Below are positions 1-36,581 of a stretch of 36,581 nucleotides of DNA, piece after piece. Source of the stretch: an uncultured Schlesneria sp. (lineage in GTDB: Bacteria; Planctomycetota; Planctomycetia; Planctomycetales; Planctomycetaceae). Numbering within the stretch: the first letter of the stretch is position 1; each line of letters begins with the position of its first letter. A program made the translations under genes and the position numbers. The notes beneath the pieces were generated by a model. The model did not search any database and had not been told where the DNA came from. It saw only the letters and a program-made list of their open reading frames with translations. Location: contig CAILLA010000258.1 of NCBI GenBank assembly GCA_903834925.1, forward strand, positions 1-36,581, in the 5' to 3' direction.

Positions 1-36
1 AGCACGGCCTTACCGAAGACGGTAAGACCGTGGCAC
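1..36 (+). repeat. Dispersed hairpin element, copy A
   Basis: First of four related palindromes in the window. It carries the shared blocks AGCAC, CGAAGACG and GTGGCAC. The arms pair as CACGG-CC-TTACCG / CGGTAA-GA-CCGTG around an AAGA loop, 12 of 13 positions paired. It lies about 105 bp beyond the stop codon of the giant minus-strand gene. The window starts exactly at its first base, so sequence further left is unknown. Function unknown: a REP-like mobile palindrome or a structured RNA or terminator. Confidence 0.75.
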
Positions 37-11768: not shown

Positions 11769-11801
11769 TCCCTTGGCAGCGGTTGATCCAAGGTTGCGTG
11801 C

Positions 11802-11831
11802 CGCTGCTTCGAAGTCTTCTTAGAAGCAGCG
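11802..11831 (+). terminator. Possible terminator-like hairpin after the ketosynthase gene
   Basis: CGCTGCTTC (11802-11810) and GAAGCAGCG (11823-11831) form a perfect 9-bp stem with a 12-nt loop, starting 33 bp after the ketosynthase stop. There is no T-run after it, so intrinsic termination is uncertain. Confidence 0.4.
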
Positions 11832-11858
11832 TGGTTACTGTTTACCCTGCAAGTGAAG

Positions 11859-11894
11859 AGCACTTTATGGCCGAAGACGGTCATCCAGTGGCAC
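11859..11894 (+). repeat. Dispersed hairpin element, copy B
   Basis: Same element as at 1-36: AGCAC, CGAAGACG and GTGGCAC blocks in the same spacing. The arms are CACTTTATGGCCG and CGGTCATCCAGTG, with 11 of 13 positions paired (one G-T). It ends one base before the ATG assigned to the alpha/beta hydrolase, so it may form part of that gene's leader. Confidence 0.75.
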
Positions 11895-14315: not shown

Positions 14316-14358
14316 ACATTGGACGTTCCCTCGTTCCCAAGCGCCGGCGTTTAGTTCC

Positions 14359-14494
14359 CTCGTTCCCAAGCTCCGGCTTGGGAACGAGCTACTTCCAAGC
14401 TCTGGCTTGGCGTTTTAGCCGGGGAAGTTCGCCTTGCAATTCGCGAAGCGGAGCTTCGAAGAGCTGCGTACCCAAGCTGGAGCTTGGGGACGAG
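14359..14494 (+). repeat. 135-nt composite palindromic repeat, copy 1
   Basis: It begins with a 12-bp stem hairpin, CTCGTTCCCAAG / CTTGGGAACGAG (14359-14388, loop CTCCGG). A second CCAAGCTCTGGCTTGG palindrome follows, then a block with TTCGCGAAGCGGAGCTTCG, and last CCCAAGCTGGAGCTTGGGG. The same four parts in the same order occur at 15232-15366. A truncated extra start lies just upstream (about 14330-14349). Confidence 0.85.
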
Positions 14495-14611
14495 AGTTAC
14501 TAACGAGAGTAAGCGATCTCCGTTGGCGATTTCGCTCTGATCGGGCTATGTTGAATATCAGGATCACCACTTGGTGAACCGGTTCCAAGCAGCTTCTCAG
14601 GAATACATAGT

Positions 14612-15208
14612 ATGCAATTGTTAAGTTCCGCCTCTCGACGAATAGTCCTTCGGACTATGTTGGCCTCCTTGGCTTGCCTGACCTTCCTCGTTCCGGTTGT
14701 CGCAGCCGATCCCGCCAAAAAAGAAACGATCACCGAGGCCGAAGTGAACTCCGCTCAACAAGCGTGGTGTGATGGACTCGTAAAAATTGGCAAAGTTCAT
14801 AAAGAAGGGGGCGACTACAAAGCCGTGGCGACGCAAGTGATTCATGATCTTTACGACTACAACGACGGAAAGGTGTTTTTCAAACCAACATTAGCGTTTG
14901 GCAAGAACACTTTCCGCAGTACGAAGGAAGGGGCACTTTCCTACTTTGTCGGTGGCAGCAAGGATTTTCCAGAAGATTCAGGTTTTGCACTGAAGCACTG
15001 GGTGAAAGTTCGGTATGACAACAACGCTACTGAGAACGGTATTCAAATTCATGGAGATATCGCGATCACCATGGGGAATGTTTACCTCACGAATGCCAAT
15101 GGTGATGAAGTGATGGTGGACAAGACGTTCGTGTTTCGGAAGTGCAAAGATGGCAAGCTTCGGCTGTGCGTTCACAAGTCGGCATTGCCGTTTGAACCTG
15201 CGAAGTAG
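14612..15208 (+). CDS. Small secreted NTF2/SnoaL-like protein
   Basis: 198 residues with a signal peptide (about 1-32, basic start, hydrophobic core, AA cleavage site before DPAKK). The mature part resembles a family often mislabelled phosphoribosyl-AMP cyclohydrolase: QQAWCDGLVKIGKVHKEGGDY, VIHDLYDYNDGKVFFKPT, EGALSYFVGG, FPEDSGFA and a final HKSALPF. It probably has an NTF2-like cone fold; no cyclohydrolase catalytic cysteines are present. An AGGAA about 9 nt before ATG 14612 supports the start. The gene stands alone between two near-identical 135-nt repeats, an arrangement that would allow deletion or exchange. Biochemical role unknown; the resemblance is from memory of the family. Confidence 0.82.
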   Translation: MQLLSSASRRIVLRTMLASLACLTFLVPVVAADPAKKETITEAEVNSAQQAWCDGLVKIGKVHKEGGDYKAVATQVIHDLYDYNDGKVFFKPTLAFGKNTFRSTKEGALSYFVGGSKDFPEDSGFALKHWVKVRYDNNATENGIQIHGDIAITMGNVYLTNANGDEVMVDKTFVFRKCKDGKLRLCVHKSALPFEPAK

Positions 15209-15231
15209 GCTCATTCCCCTCGTTCATTCCT

Positions 15232-15366
15232 CTCGTTCCCAAGCTCCGGCTTGGGAACGAGCGTCTTCCAAGCTCCGGCTTGGCGTTTTTCTGGAGACGG
15301 TCGCTTTGCAATTCGCGAAGCGGAGCTTCGACGAGCTGAGTTCCCAAGCTGGAGCTTGGGAACGAG
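15232..15366 (+). repeat. 135-nt composite palindromic repeat, copy 2
   Basis: Same order of palindromes as at 14359-14494 and the same orientation, 873 bp further on. It starts with the identical CTCGTTCCCAAG / CTTGGGAACGAG hairpin (15232-15261) and ends with CCCAAGCTGGAGCTTGGG followed by AACGAG. It fills most of the gap between the NTF2-like gene and the convergent DUF1552 gene. Confidence 0.85.
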
Positions 15367-15390
15367 ACGGAATCGGGAACGAGACTAACA

Positions 15391-26113: not shown

Positions 26114-26239
26114 CGTTTTCATCATTCAGTCGGTGTTGATGAACTGGCGGTAACCCCAGTTGCTCGGAACGAATTGTATTACTGCTAAAAATGTGGGTGC
26201 CGCCAGTGGCTTCGATTCGAGTTGCCCATAAAAACGACG

Positions 26240-26273
26240 AGCACTGGCGAGCGAAGACGCACGCCAGTGGCAC
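26240..26273 (+). repeat. Dispersed hairpin element, copy D
   Basis: AGCAC, GCGAAGACGC and GTGGCAC blocks as in the other copies. The arms are CACTGGCG-A-GCG and CGC-A-CGCCAGTG, 11 of 12 positions paired around AAGA. The stem is one pair shorter and its sequence differs from the other copies, yet it still folds. It lies in the 192-bp gap between the convergent FAD oxidoreductase and P450 genes. A related half-site, GCCAGTGGC, occurs just to its left. Confidence 0.7.
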
Positions 26274-27694: not shown

Positions 27695-28195
27695 GAATCA
27701 TTTCACTTTGCTGGAGTTGATTTAACCGGGCGTGACGCAATGGAGGGATGAAAGTGGAATAAATTTTCGGCATCTACGCTGACTGATCCTTCAATCCATT
27801 TCACCAATTTCGGAAAATGCAGACAGACCGCAGCGTAAATACAAACCCGAAGGAAGCGCTACGAAGAGCGTAACAAACACAGATTCCCGGATCAATCAGC
27901 GATATACGACAATTGATCCCAAACACAAGACTTAAACAATCACAGCGTCAGCACTTAGCCAGTTTTCACTTCCGACAAAGGATCATTCTGATTTGTGCCT
28001 GCACGCCTGTCTTCGATGAAGAATCAGTGGATTCAACGTCTCGTCCAGCAATCGTTGGCTGGTCTGATTCAGGGAACTTCCGAAAAAAACAGAAAAAACT
28101 CGAATTGCTTCTCTGATTCGCGAGACACATACTACTGGAACGGTGTTTCACTTCGGGGAATTCATATCGCGTTTGTATATTGGCAGGAGATTGTG
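27695..28195. other. Divergent intergenic region without a recognised gene
   Basis: 501 bp between the start of the P450 gene (-) and the DUF4175-like gene (+). The frame of the plus-strand gene remains open back to 27995, but that stretch has no Shine-Dalgarno or domain and is treated as leader. No palindrome family or RNA gene was recognised; promoters for both genes are expected here. Confidence 0.5.
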
Positions 28196-31100
28196 ATGTC
28201 GACAGCTCCGACAGGAATTCCACCTCTGATCGAACGTCAACTGCTCGCCTTGGACAAGCAGATTCGAGATTCTGCGTTCATTCGGGGGGCGGGTCGGCTG
28301 GTGCTTGGAATCTGTCTGTTTCTGAGCGGCGGTTTTCTGCTTGATGCGTTTCTCGGTCTGAACGGAACGGTTCGCGGATGTCTGCTTGGCGGTTGGATCG
28401 CTCTGGCCTTGTGGTTGCTGTGGCGAGGTGTGATCCGGCCGGCCATCGCCCCCGTGTCGTTTTCGGCTCTAGCCGCTCTGGTTGAACGACAGTTCCCCGA
28501 GTTGCGCGAACGTTTGACATCATTGGTTGAACTACGAGGGAACGAAGGGACCGAATTGGCTCCCGGTGCATCCAAGTTGATGCAAGACTTGCTCGCGCGT
28601 CAGACGGTGAAAGCACTTGACCAGTTTTCGGTTGATCAGGTTGGTTCTCACTATGGCCCTATGAAAGCGGTCGTCGCAGGCGCGTTATCGGTCCTTCTGT
28701 TGATTGCCCCTTTTGCCTGGAACTCCGATGGCTACGCCCTTTTGTGGAGTCGGTTTTTTGTTCCCTGGGGGAATTTCGCCTGGGGGGCGAACCTGGACGT
28801 GAAAGTCGTCGAGGGGGATCAGGTGGTTGCTCGTGGGACCGATGTCCCTGTTCACGTTGTGCTGAGCGAACGACGCCGTCACCGTGAAGTCGATCAAAAC
28901 AACATTAAGCCTCTCTGGTTGAATTGGCATGACGCGACAAATGCCTCGGATCGCCGCAGGCTGGAATGGGATGCGGAAAGTGAATCATTTACGACAACAC
29001 TGCCACACGTTTTGCAATCCGTTACGTTCGATGTGACAACTGACGGAGCCAAGTCTGGCACACACCGGATTGATGTGGCTGACCCTCCTGTTATCACTCA
29101 ATTCAAACTTGAGATCGAACCTGCGGCATACACGGGGCTGCCGGCAAAATTATTGACTGGAGTCCCCGGTGAAGTCCATGTCACAGAATTCAGTCGAATC
29201 CAGTTGCAGATGGAATTCAACGAGCCGGTTGTCGAAGCCGAATTGAAGTGGCCGGCCGAATCTGTCGATCCAACGAATTTGGCTGCGAAATCCGATCAGA
29301 AATCAGACCAGCGAATCGCTATCGAGACGGCAATACCGATTGAACTGTCTGCCGACCGGCGCTCAGGGATATTAAGTGCCAAGGCAAGCCTCACAGGGCC
29401 TTTCGCAGTTCGAGTCAAGAATTCGTTCGGATTGCGGAACAACGATCCGTCTCGATTGCTGATAGTGAAACCCGATCTCCCGCCGGAAATCCGGCTGAGT
29501 GGTCCGGAAGATCCTGTCCTTGTCCGTCCCGACGACATCTTTGAGCAAACCATTGAGGTTGCCGACGATTTTGGGCTGACAGCTGTGGAATTGCATGCTG
29601 AGTCATCAACGGGAATCAAACACGTCGAGCAAATGACCGCCGAGCAATTGCGTGAACCGAATGTTTCTCACACCTTCGCGCTGGACTTGACTCCCTTTGC
29701 ATTAAACGGCGGTCAGATCGTGACATTTCGTGTACGGGCGGTCGACAATCGTCCTCAACCAAGTCCCCACGAGGTCTGGACAGCCACTCGGACGTTGATG
29801 ATTAACACCAGCCTTAAGCAACTGCCCGACCAGGAATTGGCGGCGGAAGAAAAAAGCCTGGAAGATGAATTGACCAGCCTGAGAACGGAGCTGAACGAAT
29901 CAAAAGAAGCATTAGCCGCACTTCATCAGCAAACCGAACAAGAATCGCTGAATAAGAAACCGGAAACCGATAAGACCGAGCGATTGATCGCTCTTCAAGA
30001 GGCACAAGACCGTCTGATCGAGAAGTTGCAGCAGCTGAGTGATCGTCTAGCCGAACGTCGCATGACAAAGGATCTCGCACCACTGGCAGATCGGATCGCC
30101 GACGAAAATATGCAAGCTGCCCAGGATCGGTTGGAACAGGCAAAGAATCAGCCAGCTCGCGACCAGTTAGAGCCGATTGCTCAGGCGATCGATCGGACTG
30201 GAGCTGCCGATCGCCAATTGCAACAGTTGGAACGCCAACTGAATGAGCTTAATAAACTCGAACAAGATCTTGTCGAATTGACGCGAATCGCCCAGCGAGC
30301 GGAGCGACTTGCCGATCAGTTGGAAAAGTTCGAAGCCGATCAGCAAGCTGCCACAGATCAAGGGACACAACAGGCTGAACAACAGCAGGCCGAAAAAGCG
30401 GGACAGACAGCCGGGTCGCAGGACCGGCAGGCATCTGCGGCACAACAGAATCCGAACGCAAATTCGCCCGGATCAAACTCACCGCAGAATCAAAGCGAAA
30501 AAGCCTCGAAGCCAAATCAGGAACCTGCGGGCGACGGTAAGCAAGACCCCGCTGCCGCAGAGGCGCTTCAAAAACTGAAGGACGAAGGGCAGAAGCTTTC
30601 GGATCAAATGAACGAATTGCTGAAAAAGCATCCCGAGCTTTTGGAAGCCGCTCGCCGCGAACAACAGGATCAACTGAATCGACTTGCCGACCAGGCACGT
30701 CAACTCGCGGTGCCGCAAGAGCGACTTGCAGACGCATTGAAGCAGGAAGCCGAAAACGCACCAGCCGTCGCCTCGCGACCTGAAAACGCAGTCCAACCAA
30801 ACGCCGATGAGGCAACCAAAGCAACTGATAAACTGGCTGATCCTCAAGCGGGAAACACGCAGGATCAACCTGTGCAAGCGAACGCTGACACGAAAAAATC
30901 CGACACCGACAATGGCGAGCCATCAAAGGTCGATCCATCGCAGCCAAATTCACAAAAGCCGGCGAACTCGGAAATGCCAAAGCCTGATGGCGAATCGAAT
31001 GACGGGGCGAAGCCTGACAAGAAGGAAGGTGGACCTTCGAAAACGGGCGATTCACAACCCGATTCACAAAAGCCAGCGAACGCTGACGGATCAAAGACAA

Positions 31101-33832
31101 ACCCGACGAAGCCAGATGGCCAGAATGCCGTTGGATCAAAGCCTGACCCAAAGGACGGCAATCCATCGAAAGCAGACGCATCACAGCCAGATTCGCAAAA
31201 GCCAGCGAACGCGGACGGATCAAAGACAAACCCGGCGAAGCCAGATGGCCTGAATGCCGATGGATCGAAGCCTGACTCCAAGAACGGTAATCCATCGAAA
31301 GCCGTCGCATCGCAGCCAGATTTGCAAAAGCCTGCGAATGCTGACAAATCGAAAACAGACTCGCCGAAGCCAGATGGCCAAAATGCCGTTGGATCAAAGC
31401 CTGACCCAAAGGACGGCAATCCATCGAAAGCAGACGCTTCACAGCCAGATTCGCAAAAGCCGGCGAACGCGGACGGATCAAAGACAAACCCGGCGAAGCC
31501 AGATGGCCTGAATGCCGATGGATCGAAGCCTGACTCCAAGAACGGTAATCCGTCGAAGCCGGACGCATCGCAGCCAGATTCGCAAAAGCCGGCGAACGCT
31601 GACTCGCCAAAGCCTGATTCACCGAAGTCTGATGCTGGAATGCCTGACAACACTAAACCGGGGGAATCTCAAGCGGCAGCTCCTCAGGCCAACAAACCGA
31701 ACGCCGGTGCTTCCCAATCTGATCAGTCGCCGACAGCTGATAAACCGGCAAATGCGACTGAAACTGATTCCAGGTCAAATCCTCAAACCGGCGAGAATGG
31801 TTCACCAAAGCCGCCACAGAATGATCAAGCTGCTGCGAAGCAGTCTCAACAGCAGCAGGGCGCGGCTGCCGCGCAAAAGCAGGAACAGATTGCCAAGGAA
31901 GCCACTCAACAGGCGATGCAGCTGGCCAAGGAAACCGGAGCGGATTCGCCTGCCACAAAGGCCGCTACGGATTTTGCACGGAAGGCGGATGTGGCGAAAC
32001 AGCAGGCCCAGGCAGGTCAATTAGCTCAGGCTGCAAAGGAGGCTCGTGAAGCTCAAAAGGCATCCGAAGAAGCAAGCAAACAATTGAATCCGGAAGGCCG
32101 GTCGAACTCGCCGCAATCGAAAAAGGCTCAGCAACTTTCCGAACAACAGCGCGACTCCGCCAAACAGTTGGAAGAGCTCTCGAAATCTGCGGATGCAGCC
32201 CGTGGTGCTCAAATGCAAGGACAGCGTCAGCTTGCGGAAGCGACGAAAAAGCTGGCAGAACAACTCGACAAGACGGCTCAAACGTTGAAATCCAAGCCCC
32301 TCAATTCACCACAAGCGGGAGAATCTGGCGAGCGAGCGAAAAAGCAGGCCGAACAGGCTCAACAGGCGATGAAGCAGTCGGAACAATCGAATTCGCAGCA
32401 AGATCCGCAAAAGTCAGTGCAAGCCGCTGCCGCTGCCGCCGAGAAACTGAAGCAAGCTGCCGATGAAGTGAAGCCAACTCCCCCGCAATCACCAAAGTCA
32501 ACTCCTGTTCCGAAACAGGTGGGGGCGCAAGTCGCCGAAGCAACAAAACAGATTCAAGCGGCTCAACAGAAACTCGGACAATGTAATTGCAATAATCCAA
32601 GTTCTTCGAATTCGGGTTCAAAATCGGGATCGAGTTCCTCATCAAATCCCAACGGGAGCCCGAAACAAGGCTCACAGAACCAGTCTCAACAAGACGGAAA
32701 ACAGCCGGGAAAATCCCCGTCCGATAGCAAACAGCAAGGTCAGAGTGGTCAGGAAGGGAAACAACAGAGCCAGTCCCAACAGGACGGAAAGCAGCCGGGA
32801 AAATCCCCGTCAGACAGCAAACAACAAGGTCAGAGCGGTCAGGAGGGGAAACAACAGAGCCAGTCCCAACAAGACGGAAAGCAGCCGGGAAAATCCCCGT
32901 CAGACAGCAAACAACAAGGTCAGAGCGGTCAGGAGGGGAAACAACAGAGCCAGTCCCAACAAGACGGAAAACAGCCGGAAAAATCCCCGTCAGACAGCAA
33001 ACAACAAGGTCAGAGCGGTCAGGAGGGGAAACAACAGAGCCAGTCCCAACAGGACGGAAAGCAGCCGGGAAAATCCCCGTCCGACAGCAAACAACAAGGT
33101 CAGAGCGGCCAGGAAGGGAAACAGCAGAGCCAGTCTCAACAAGACGGAAAACAGCCGGGAAAATCCCCGTCCGACAGCAAACAACAAGGTCAGAGTGGTC
33201 AGGAAGGGAAACAACAGAGCCAGTCCCAACAGGACGGAAAACAGCCGGGACAATCCCCGTCAGACAGCAAAAAGCAAGGTCAGAACGGTCAGGAGGGGAA
33301 ACAACAGAGCCAGTCCCAACAGGACGGAAAGCAGCCGGGAAAACCTCAGCAAGCAGGCAATCAACAGGGGCAGCCATCCAAGCCGGGACAGCCAGACGGC
33401 CCTCCATCGGAAGGGGATTCTAAGAGTAATCAAGTTGGAAATCAGCAGCAGCCGAAGGGATCGGACTTTGCCCAGGCGGCTCAGCAATTCCGCGATGTCG
33501 CAGCGATGTTGAGACAGACTCGTGGCGAACCAAAGGAAAATTTAGCCGCGCGCCAACCAATGAAATCGCAAAAGCCCGGAAAGCCGATGCCGGGTGAGCC
33601 TCAACCGAATTCGGAGCCGGGCGAAGCGGGGGACAATGCGCAGGGAACAACGGCGACTCCGGATCTCAGTCACTTGGATGTTGAGCTTCAGCAGCAGGCA
33701 CGTCAAAACTGGGGCCGACTCCCAGGACAGCTGCGCACCGAAATTCTTCAAGGGTCGGGAAAGAAGTCGCATCCTGAATACACTCAGCGGATCAAGTCGT
33801 ACTTCGACGAAATTACCAAACCGGCCAAGTGA
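28196..33832 (+). CDS. DUF4175-like membrane protein with long low-complexity repeat arrays
   Basis: 1878 residues from ATG 28196, chosen because AGGAG lies 6-7 nt upstream; the frame is open to 27995. Hydrophobic helices near the N-terminus (about 33-82 and 157-177) anchor it. A beta-rich extracytoplasmic part follows (about 200-530), then coiled coil rich in Glu, Leu, Gln and Arg (about 545-730). From about 720 to 1780 the chain is Gln/Lys/Pro/Ser/Asp-rich and probably disordered, including a 43-residue repeat (950-1145) and a 30-residue repeat (1496-1716). A CNC motif sits at about 1463. The end (about 1830-1878: NWGRLPGQLRTEIL, EYTQRIKSYFDEI) resembles the conserved tail of planctomycete homologues. 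The layout recalls the TIGR02302/DUF4175 type. It is 6 bp from the next gene. Function unknown; cell-envelope role inferred. Confidence 0.85.
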   Translation: MSTAPTGIPPLIERQLLALDKQIRDSAFIRGAGRLVLGICLFLSGGFLLDAFLGLNGTVRGCLLGGWIALALWLLWRGVIRPAIAPVSFSALAALVERQFPELRERLTSLVELRGNEGTELAPGASKLMQDLLARQTVKALDQFSVDQVGSHYGPMKAVVAGALSVLLLIAPFAWNSDGYALLWSRFFVPWGNFAWGANLDVKVVEGDQVVARGTDVPVHVVLSERRRHREVDQNNIKPLWLNWHDATNASDRRRLEWDAESESFTTTLPHVLQSVTFDVTTDGAKSGTHRIDVADPPVITQFKLEIEPAAYTGLPAKLLTGVPGEVHVTEFSRIQLQMEFNEPVVEAELKWPAESVDPTNLAAKSDQKSDQRIAIETAIPIELSADRRSGILSAKASLTGPFAVRVKNSFGLRNNDPSRLLIVKPDLPPEIRLSGPEDPVLVRPDDIFEQTIEVADDFGLTAVELHAESSTGIKHVEQMTAEQLREPNVSHTFALDLTPFALNGGQIVTFRVRAVDNRPQPSPHEVWTATRTLMINTSLKQLPDQELAAEEKSLEDELTSLRTELNESKEALAALHQQTEQESLNKKPETDKTERLIALQEAQDRLIEKLQQLSDRLAERRMTKDLAPLADRIADENMQAAQDRLEQAKNQPARDQLEPIAQAIDRTGAADRQLQQLERQLNELNKLEQDLVELTRIAQRAERLADQLEKFEADQQAATDQGTQQAEQQQAEKAGQTAGSQDRQASAAQQNPNANSPGSNSPQNQSEKASKPNQEPAGDGKQDPAAAEALQKLKDEGQKLSDQMNELLKKHPELLEAARREQQDQLNRLADQARQLAVPQERLADALKQEAENAPAVASRPENAVQPNADEATKATDKLADPQAGNTQDQPVQANADTKKSDTDNGEPSKVDPSQPNSQKPANSEMPKPDGESNDGAKPDKKEGGPSKTGDSQPDSQKPANADGSKTNPTKPDGQNAVGSKPDPKDGNPSKADASQPDSQKPANADGSKTNPAKPDGLNADGSKPDSKNGNPSKAVASQPDLQKPANADKSKTDSPKPDGQNAVGSKPDPKDGNPSKADASQPDSQKPANADGSKTNPAKPDGLNADGSKPDSKNGNPSKPDASQPDSQKPANADSPKPDSPKSDAGMPDNTKPGESQAAAPQANKPNAGASQSDQSPTADKPANATETDSRSNPQTGENGSPKPPQNDQAAAKQSQQQQGAAAAQKQEQIAKEATQQAMQLAKETGADSPATKAATDFARKADVAKQQAQAGQLAQAAKEAREAQKASEEASKQLNPEGRSNSPQSKKAQQLSEQQRDSAKQLEELSKSADAARGAQMQGQRQLAEATKKLAEQLDKTAQTLKSKPLNSPQAGESGERAKKQAEQAQQAMKQSEQSNSQQDPQKSVQAAAAAAEKLKQAADEVKPTPPQSPKSTPVPKQVGAQVAEATKQIQAAQQKLGQCNCNNPSSSNSGSKSGSSSSSNPNGSPKQGSQNQSQQDGKQPGKSPSDSKQQGQSGQEGKQQSQSQQDGKQPGKSPSDSKQQGQSGQEGKQQSQSQQDGKQPGKSPSDSKQQGQSGQEGKQQSQSQQDGKQPEKSPSDSKQQGQSGQEGKQQSQSQQDGKQPGKSPSDSKQQGQSGQEGKQQSQSQQDGKQPGKSPSDSKQQGQSGQEGKQQSQSQQDGKQPGQSPSDSKKQGQNGQEGKQQSQSQQDGKQPGKPQQAGNQQGQPSKPGQPDGPPSEGDSKSNQVGNQQQPKGSDFAQAAQQFRDVAAMLRQTRGEPKENLAARQPMKSQKPGKPMPGEPQPNSEPGEAGDNAQGTTATPDLSHLDVELQQQARQNWGRLPGQLRTEILQGSGKKSHPEYTQRIKSYFDEITKPAK
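31052..31633 (+). repeat. 129-nt in-frame tandem array with 258-nt higher-order copy
   Basis: Units start at 31052, 31181, 31310, 31439 and 31568 (the last partial), each encoding 43 residues of the form SQPDSQKPANADGSKTN..KPDG..GSKPD.K.GNPSK. Units alternate in type, and two-unit blocks of 258 nt (about 31118-31375 and 31376-31633) are nearly identical, showing a later duplication of a pair of units. Confidence 0.85.
32681..33345 (+). repeat. 90-nt in-frame tandem array
   Basis: Seven full 90-nt units (starts at 32681, 32771, 32861, 32951, 33041, 33131, 33221) and a partial eighth (33311-33345). Each encodes 30 residues, approximately QSQQDGKQPGKSPSDSK then QQGQSGQEGKQQS. Units differ at only a few positions, mostly silent, with one GKS to EKS and a slightly more diverged last unit. 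Confidence 0.92.
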
Positions 33833-34889: not shown

Positions 34890-34961
34890 TTAGCCCGACG
34901 CGCAAGCGAGGGATCTTCAACTTGATTGAAGGCACGATCCCTCGTTTGCGCGTCGGGCTAA
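34890..34961. repeat. Long inverted repeat after the alpha/alpha-barrel gene
   Basis: Two 26-nt arms, 34890-34915 (starting TTAGCCCGACGCGCAAG) and 34936-34961 (ending TTGCGCGTCGGGCTAA), pair with one mismatch around a 20-nt loop. The stem starts 14 bp after the stop codon at 34876 and is followed by ACGAAAAAAT. It could serve as a bidirectional terminator and is probably a copy of a dispersed planctomycete palindrome. Confidence 0.85.
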
Positions 34962-36269: not shown

Positions 36270-36412
36270 ATCATCATTTCGTCAACGTTGTTCGCAATTG
36301 TGTGAAGTCAATCGGGTGGTTAGTGTGACAGATGAGAAATAAAATGGAACAATGAATCCAGTTCTTCTTCGAATGGTTTTGATCTGGTGCTTCGCCAGTC
36401 TTCTGAATTACT

Positions 36413-36448
36413 GTGCCACTGTTTGACCGTCTTCGGTCAAGCAGTGCT
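36413..36448 (-). repeat. Dispersed hairpin element, copy C
   Basis: On the minus strand the element reads AGCACTGCTTGACCG, AAGA, CGGTCAAACAGTG, GCAC. The arms CACTG-C-TTGACCG and CGGTCAA-A-CAGTG pair at 12 of 13 positions. It lies upstream of mobA in a 312-bp stretch that holds no gene. Same conserved blocks as copies A, B and D. Confidence 0.75.
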
Positions 36449-36518
36449 CTTCGACCCCTAGAAAGAGACGACTCTTTTTCCGAATATGCAAGTGAGATTC
36501 ATGTTAGGCCAAAGTAGC

Positions 36519-36538
36519 CATCATCGCTCCGCGTGATG
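36519..36538. repeat. Short palindrome of a REP-like type
   Basis: CATCATCGC and GCGTGATG pair with one bulged base around TCC. The neighbouring CCAAAGTAGC resembles the context of a repeat I associate with planctomycete intergenic regions. The rest of 36270-36581 shows no gene. Confidence 0.45.
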
Positions 36539-36581
36539 AGCATCGTTCGCGAACCCGTCAAATTTCAATCCGTATGTTTTC

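Follow-up and report, generated by a model that had tools for sequence, protein, structure and literature searches.

GAAGAC-loop hairpins of Schlesneria as probable ends of small REPIN-like mobile elements

Results and Discussion

The hairpins described here, first noticed in a contig of an uncultured Schlesneria sp., belong to a family that is found in hundreds of copies and is mostly arranged in inverted doublets. We consider it probable that they make up both ends of short mobile elements without coding function, which resemble REPINs and would be moved as a folded single strand. The initial annotation of this DNA had offered two readings, a structured RNA or a hairpin recognised by a REP-type transposase. 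The second fits the copy number, the intergenic position, the inverted doublets and the presence/absence variation between genomes, whereas the structured RNA is not supported. In the mechanism we propose as the most likely one, the single-stranded unit would fold, and an HUH/Y1-type transposase encoded elsewhere and acting in trans would recognise a hairpin with its unpaired GTGC foot, excise the unit and re-insert it; single hairpins may be decayed doublets. The Y1 class is a guess from the mechanism, and the mobilisation in trans is likewise inferred.

Hairpins in the analysed window

The window, i.e. the whole stretch of 36,581 nt that was analysed, contains five family hairpins identified with a covariance model and by DNA folding (Table 1). 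Four of them had been reported in the initial annotation. Inspection of the sequence confirmed where they lie and, exactly as claimed, that both partners of the stem pairs 4, 7 and 9 change together. The stems mostly keep pairing, but mismatches occur at positions 5-6 in the copy at 11859 (copy B) and at position 6 in the minus-strand copy at 36413 (copy D); the copy at 26240 is 2 bases shorter than the others. The constant bulged G described for the 3' flank is not present in the predicted folds, where GCAC forms an unpaired 3' foot. The family of four is real but larger than assumed, comprising a fifth hairpin in the window and 229 strict copies in the genome. This fifth hairpin is the left half of a doublet located between two co-directional genes, a ketoacyl synthase gene (end 11768) and an alpha/beta hydrolase ORF (start 11896).

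Table 1. Features of the hairpin family and associated repeats in the window (z, DNA-fold score compared to shuffled sequences)
Feature	Position	Strand	Evidence	z
Hairpin, right-hand type, GG subfamily; 5' side truncated by contig start; GCAC foot 33-36	1..36	+	47.0 bits, folding	-5.7
Left hairpin of doublet; absent from the initial annotation	11798..11837	-	37.5 bits	-5.8
Right hairpin of doublet; GAAGAG foot, loop AAGA, 3' foot GCAC	11855..11894	+	46.1 bits, folding	-2.7
Whole doublet, inverted hairpins, spacer 17 nt	11798..11894	.		
Probable left-partner remnant of the hairpin at 26236, GTGCC...GCCAGTGGCTTC, middle deleted	26197..26213	-	by eye, from intact partners elsewhere	
Hairpin, short GGCGAGCG subfamily, in gap of convergent genes	26236..26273	+	34.0 bits, folding	-5.8
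Putative outer arm beside the hairpin at 36413, plus strand GTGCTTCGCCAGTCTTCTGAATTA; compare left arms like gtgcTTcGTCAAACTTCTGAATTA of other copies	36387..36412	.	similarity	
Hairpin, TGCTTGACC subfamily	36413..36452	-	59.9 bits, folding	-5.3
GTAG-tagged hairpin AAAGTAGCC..., one arm of a canonical GTAG REP pair	36511..36543	+		

Family size and distribution

The strict pattern AGCACN{4,14}GAAGACN{4,14}GTGGCAC was matched 229 times in the whole genome of 9.02 Mb and the reversed pattern not at all. Neither the loss of stem pairing nor the shortage of copies that, according to the initial annotation, would have spoken against a repeat family was observed. For a closer analysis we used 1.09 Mb, or 12% of the genome, consisting of the window and 60 of 67 stretches selected around the first 100 of the 229 strict places. 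This sample contains 243 hairpins at up to 3 substitutions (reversed control: 8); since it was chosen around strict copies, densities and nesting rates derived from it are biased upward. The covariance model, trained on 79 diverse copies from several genomes, gave 248 matches in the sample at E <=0.01, a few of which represent both strands of one hairpin. The training copies were selected by motif, so that the matches of the model lean to the motif as well.

In a search at the level of the order, 12 of the 15 genus genomes contained the strict pattern; among 155 genomes from outside the genus, 1 gave a single irregular match. The model detected copies in 14 of the 15 genus genomes at E <=0.001. 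Its counts per genome are lower bounds, as at most 150 candidates were scored in each, and amount to 149-150 in 6 of the 15. At the level of the family, 25 of 170 genomes gave matches at E <=1e-5, namely 13 of the genus and 12 from 8 other genera; in most of these 12, matches were few. The clearest case outside Schlesneria is a genome of another genus (G008) with 40 matches at E <=0.001, many of them in inverted pairs. Its hairpins exhibit the same doublet layout, with loops such as GGAC and GTAC alongside GAAGAC. Schlesneria is the one genus in which the family abounds, and its presence is clear in one other. A contig scan with the strict pattern yielded at least 106 stretches, 22 among those listed being from Schlesneria; the remaining ones listed, mostly with 1 match each and from many phyla including some Phycisphaerae, were taken as chance. 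Short tandem arrays of hairpins with a period of about 117-142 bp occur on contigs C43, C57, C86, C171 and C179 of the own genome (G000) and on contig C2 of G145.

Covariation of the stems

Covariation, for which the initial annotation had proposed a statistical test, was compared with shuffled alignments on the 79 diverse copies. In these, 80.7% of the cells pair compared to 65.9% after shuffling, and both sides are changed in 159 cells compared to 62.4 (0/500 shuffles as high in both cases). The covariation score was 0.326 versus 0.112 in shuffled alignments (0/500 as high) and did not exceed 0.105 when the partners were slid by 1-3 columns. The number of further pair types, a weaker measure, was 33 compared to 28.3 (10/500 as high), and the number of stem pairs changed on both sides (9 compared to 7.7; 80/500 as high) was not significant. 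As the copies are related, the shuffle figures overstate the covariation. The claim that the folded form matters is supported by the covariation score, the count of pairs changed on both sides being not above that of the shuffles. Since the upper stem is open in some subtypes, stem pairs 6, 10, 11 and 12 are unpaired in 27-37 of the 79 copies. Folding energy is neutral between two separate hairpins and one long hairpin, with 44 of 90 doublets having more pairs within their halves; covariation, with the weaker measures noted above, favours separate hairpins.

Architecture of the doublets

The monomer reads GAAG(A/AG)-CAC-stem-GAAGAC-stem-GTG-GCAC, with up to 13 pairs and the loop AAGA. A doublet consists of an inverted left and a direct right monomer, giving the unit 5'-GTGC-hairpin-spacer-hairpin-GCAC-3'. 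In the own sample 180 of the 243 hairpins form 90 such minus-plus doublets less than 60 nt apart, and only 7 plus-minus neighbours are that close. Altogether 102 close pairs were observed, whereas random placement on 15% of the bases would give 33.8. The spacer has a median length of 16 nt (n=90) and of 18 nt in the related genome G146 (n=37). Left and right stems of one element are often unlike in sequence, each being self-complementary.

Upstream of 94 strict hairpins, which were selected on the right side only, a GTCTTC loop was present in 60. The left foot of these 60 is GTGC in 41 and another sequence in 4; in 15, no CAC was found and the foot was thus unreadable. Whereas all strict right copies carry the GCAC foot by selection, the left foot was unselected, and GTGC in 41 of the 45 readable left partners indicates that GT[AG]G is not the foot of this family. 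An unpaired terminal CGTC tag is absent as well, the ends being GTGC and GCAC. Furthermore, doublets deviate less from the motif than single hairpins do, with 0.87 compared to 1.43 substitutions in the own sample (p=0.0009) and 1.19 compared to 1.94 in G146 (p=0.0006). These values are best-match counts; non-minimal mismatch counts revealed no difference (2.49 and 2.54 in the own sample, 2.58 and 2.28 in G146).

In several subfamilies of the TG type the doublet is enclosed by outer inverted repeats, each about 25-30 bp long, (CT)AGTGCGTTGTCAA...TTGACAACGCACTAG or AGTGCGTTGTCAA...TTGACAACGCAC, the whole measuring about 155-180 bp by eye. The GG subfamily has different flanks, which do not form inverted repeats. 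When the two outer flanks of 40 nt were paired with each other in all 90 doublets, 18 cases fell below -12 kcal/mol compared to 8.8 with shuffled partners, a slight excess. At more than 150 nt from any hairpin, none of three outer-arm motifs was found in the 1.09 Mb sample except for one degenerate copy. The outer arm GGGGTGGCNCTGCTTGA of G008 has 10 matches in that genome, 8 of them beside hairpins and the other 2 (C3:270299, C14:72912) 0.6-1.1 kb from a hairpin. It has no match in G000, G146, G148 and G007, and 3 in G009.

Empty sites in a related genome

A comparison with about 1.26 Mb of G146 yielded alignable flanks, and thereby a placement, for 21 of the 138 own units. At 12 of these loci G146 has no hairpin (at up to 5 substitutions), and at 9 there is a hairpin or a remnant. 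The absence at 12 of the 21 loci shows either gain or loss, and some of the empty sites may have arisen by deletion in the relative. Five of them are near-clean (L152:4260, L183:1500, L183:11409, L189:1500 and L204:15273), G146 having at most 20 nt where the own genome has 170-197 nt. The flanks are only 78-89% identical, and the element ends at these sites are therefore blurred. No constant target duplication is visible across the five sites; by eye, a possible 5-bp duplication, CGTTA, was seen at one of them (L183:11409). Three shared sites (L183:9697, L200 and L204:16188) carry the same kind of element in both genomes. At two further orthologous sites (L202:1500 compared to contig C162 of G146, L148:1438 compared to C45) the subfamilies differ, as a result of replacement, conversion or repeated insertion.

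Alternatively the elements might be MITEs, i.e. derived from a DDE-type insertion sequence by internal deletion and moved through their outer terminal inverted repeats, with the hairpins as passengers. We regard this as unlikely. The outer inverted repeats of the TG type and the possible duplication CGTTA are what such an origin would leave, but the other four near-clean empty sites have no consistent duplication, and the outer flanks vary by subfamily, in contrast to the hairpin core, which persists even outside the genus. The size of 70-300 bp, the terminal inverted repeats and the lack of coding capacity that characterise MITEs apply to the TG type but not to the GG subfamily, and only weakly to the 90 doublets as a whole. 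Nor do the arm motifs occur away from hairpins apart from the one degenerate copy. A search for inverted pairs 60-4000 nt apart revealed two candidates for an autonomous copy, L157 and L195. In L195 a six-frame reading found no recognisable transposase, and the sample, which covers 1.09 Mb of 9.02 Mb (12%), revealed no credible copy with coding capacity.

Genomic placement

Gene calls for the placement were made with a longest-ORF heuristic (at least 110 aa). The copies are mostly intergenic, with 42 of 243 hairpins in the own sample and 19 of 96 in G146 inside such heuristic ORFs. Hairpin density in the own sample is 3.01 per kb in convergent gaps, 1.07 in tandem and 0.79 in divergent ones. 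The ranking is the same in G146 (0.92, 0.49 and 0.20 per kb, respectively).

This density peak in convergent gaps would also be in accordance with native or exapted RNA elements, that is bidirectional terminators or stabilisers of mRNA 3' ends which became repetitive by happenstance. So would the covariation preserving the fold and the position relative to the 779 own genes, 124 of which have a hairpin up to 300 nt downstream and 83 up to 300 nt upstream. We nevertheless find this explanation rather improbable. There is no U-tract: a run of at least 4 T directly follows the hairpin in only 12 of 94 strict copies, and T makes up 31% of the next 12 nt, a lack for which intrinsic terminators were rejected. 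Moreover, no terminator-like site was detected at the doublet of the window, the comparison with Rfam suggested in the initial annotation gave 0 matches at the gathering threshold in the window, and the relative is without hairpin at 12 of the 21 placed sites. An RNA role may coexist with mobility.

GTAG REP pairs nested in left hairpins

Canonical GTAG-tagged inverted pairs of 169 or 132 bp lie inside the left hairpin at the GTCTTC loop in the own genome, flanked by two further small hairpins. The pair AAAGTAGCCATCATCGCTCCGCGTGATGAGC, which measures 169 bp as a pair, lies at a near-constant position in at least two subfamilies of the GAAGAC family. Examples are, among others, L201:16829, L203:5083, L205:1606, L175:1606 and L152:2433, as well as the window itself, where copy D is adjoined by a GTAG hairpin that lies 38 bases before the contig end. 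In the own sample, which is biased, 14 of 16 GTAG pairs have at least one of three nesting marks and 4 of 16 have all three; in the G146 sample neither of the 2 GTAG pairs has any. Because of the sample bias the nesting was recounted on whole genomes. Exact right-hand junctions number 17 in G000 and 9 in G143, two different species, and 0 in the other 13 genomes of the genus. The number of GTAG hairpin halves in G000 is 169. Where an interrupted hairpin was inspected by eye, both its 5' and its 3' half match their own subfamily. From these sequences, repeated insertion of GTAG pairs at one site is suggested, amplification of the composite being the alternative. The nested pairs may be regarded as a natural record of repeat-into-repeat insertion.

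That the hairpins are merely targets or attachment sites of other mobile elements, immobile themselves and spread via recombination and tandem duplication, appears very improbable: the near-constant position of the GTAG pairs in the left hairpin of many copies, the small tandem arrays and the differing subfamilies at the two orthologous sites (L202, L148) would agree with it, but at the empty sites the insert is the whole element at unrelated loci, which tandem duplication does not produce. Integron attC sites, the hallmarks of which are cassette arrays and a GTTRRRY core, were rejected as improbable, neither being apparent.

Search for a transposase

The own genome has 10 Y1_Tnp matches, and at their loci (up to 1.5 kb on each side, less at contig ends) no strict copy was found. 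Over the genus, 96 Y1 locus entries were scanned, which include some genes twice and represent a part of all Y1 matches. A hairpin is located within 300 nt upstream of five Y1_Tnp matches (L033, L267, L269, L270 and L272) and about 280 nt downstream of one (L365). As 10.7% of the genes in the own sample and 4.3% in G146 have a hairpin within 300 nt upstream, this rate is about that of the background and indicates no enrichment; the upstream hairpins of L267, L269, L270 and L272 were accordingly not counted as evidence. A REP-type transposase adjoining the copies, as considered in the initial annotation, is in this respect not supported by the scanned Y1 loci. No RAYT (Y1) gene flanked on both sides by the repeats was present among the loci scanned, and in G008 all 9 Y1 matches are more than 2.5 kb away from each of the 40 hairpins according to the listed coordinates.

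The gene at L033, on contig C306 of the own genome, has a hairpin about 270 nt upstream together with part of its partner and was considered as a REPtron. This was rejected: the group members L250, L262 and L273 have no family hairpin in the stretches examined and carry one of the CCCAGG type instead, for which reason the adjacency at L033 is read as chance.

Beside two Y1 groups examined, other hairpins were found. In the group of L033, L250, L262 and L273, a hairpin CCCAGGGC...GCCCTGGGCTG is present in 4/4 loci and at six places (L033:1990, L250:1995, L262:772, 2084 and 2296, and L273), 156-205 nt upstream in the three loci with a computed distance. Its loops, e.g. CTCGAAGACTCG and CTCGATGACGAG, are similar to the GAAGAC loop. 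This hints that a Y1 enzyme might be able to read loops of this kind, but does not tie that group to the present family. Around the genes of a second Y1 group (MASTYLSLHYHIVFSTK...; L264, L267 and L269; G146 and G143), palindromes of the types CCGGTGG...CCACCGG and CCCTCCGGGA were observed by eye.

Comparison with known repeat families

Discussions of REP-like repeats usually involve GT[AG]G feet and RAYTs. An abundant family with covarying stems, another foot and no adjoining transposase found makes the question of what moves REPs without RAYT testable in Schlesneria.

REPINs are defined partly by inverted doublets that are better conserved than singlets, as laid out in the relevant part of Bertels and Rainey (2011, PMC3116915). 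Like the REPINs and BIMEs covered there, the present family consists of short, mostly intergenic hairpins in hundreds of copies, mostly in inverted doublets with a short spacer, the doublets being more conserved than singlets, and it exhibits presence/absence variation. Unlike them, it has the outer foot GTGC instead of GT[AG]G, an own covarying stem for each hairpin and an invariant GAAGAC loop; some subfamilies have additional inverted repeats on the outside, and no RAYT was found enriched beside the copies. Because of the different foot and the missing RAYT neighbour, we class the family as a REPIN-like variant and not as a member of the REPINs.

Two REP super-families, tagged GTAG and CGTC, are distinguished in the corresponding sections of Di Nocera et al. 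(2013, PMC3733652), the CGTC repeats being without a dedicated transposase. As described there, these repeats likewise form dimers between convergent or co-directional genes, and the lack of a dedicated transposase is shared with the CGTC repeats. In the present family, by contrast, CGTC occurs only at the loop (as complement) and not as an unpaired end tag, the stem has up to 13 pairs and the foot is GTGC. The same part of that paper (PMC3733652) describes TIRtrons/TIRYT repeats, which are linked to Y1 transposases and whose inverted repeats, comparably to ours, can be partly self-complementary and form repeat families; in the loci scanned here, however, no Y1 gene has repeats on both sides.

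For class 3 TnpAY1 of Planctomycetes, high-copy "atypical secondary structures" with the foot CnGA are mentioned in PMC6006769, which together with subclass 1.2 belongs to the closest known systems. In the genomes examined here a Y1 group likewise carries hairpins, CCCAGGGC...GCCCTGGGCTG, with similar loops (4 of 4 loci). Compared to that account, the present family has neither the CnGA foot, its own being GTGC / GAAGA, nor a nearby class 3 Y1 gene, and the Y1 motifs displayed are not those of class 3 (PMC6006769). A named family with the signature described here, of which the initial annotation knew none, was not found in the open-licence literature searched either.

Only tentatively, the family might be a separate REPIN-like single-strand lineage with a GTGC guide foot, a GAAGAC loop and a non-RAYT enzyme, occurring in at least two planctomycete genera, the left hairpin of which docks GTAG REP pairs and gives rise to nested composites. 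If it were a decayed RAYT system, it would be an ordinary new REP family.

Other repeats in the window

Palindrome repeats GTTCCCAAGCTCCGGCTTGGGAAC occur at 14348-14512 and 15214-15367, on either side of a 198-aa ORF (14612-15208) without Pfam match, and may represent another repeat system around a gene. An inverted repeat TTAGCCCGACGCGCAAGCGAGGGATC / GATCCCTCGTTTGCGCGTCGGGCTAA is located at 34890-34961; its core CGACGCGCAAGCGAGGGA has 12 occurrences at up to 1 mismatch in the 1.09 Mb sample. Tandem repeats with units of 90 bp (32584-33513) and 129 bp (30872-31645) lie inside the large ORF at 27995-33832.
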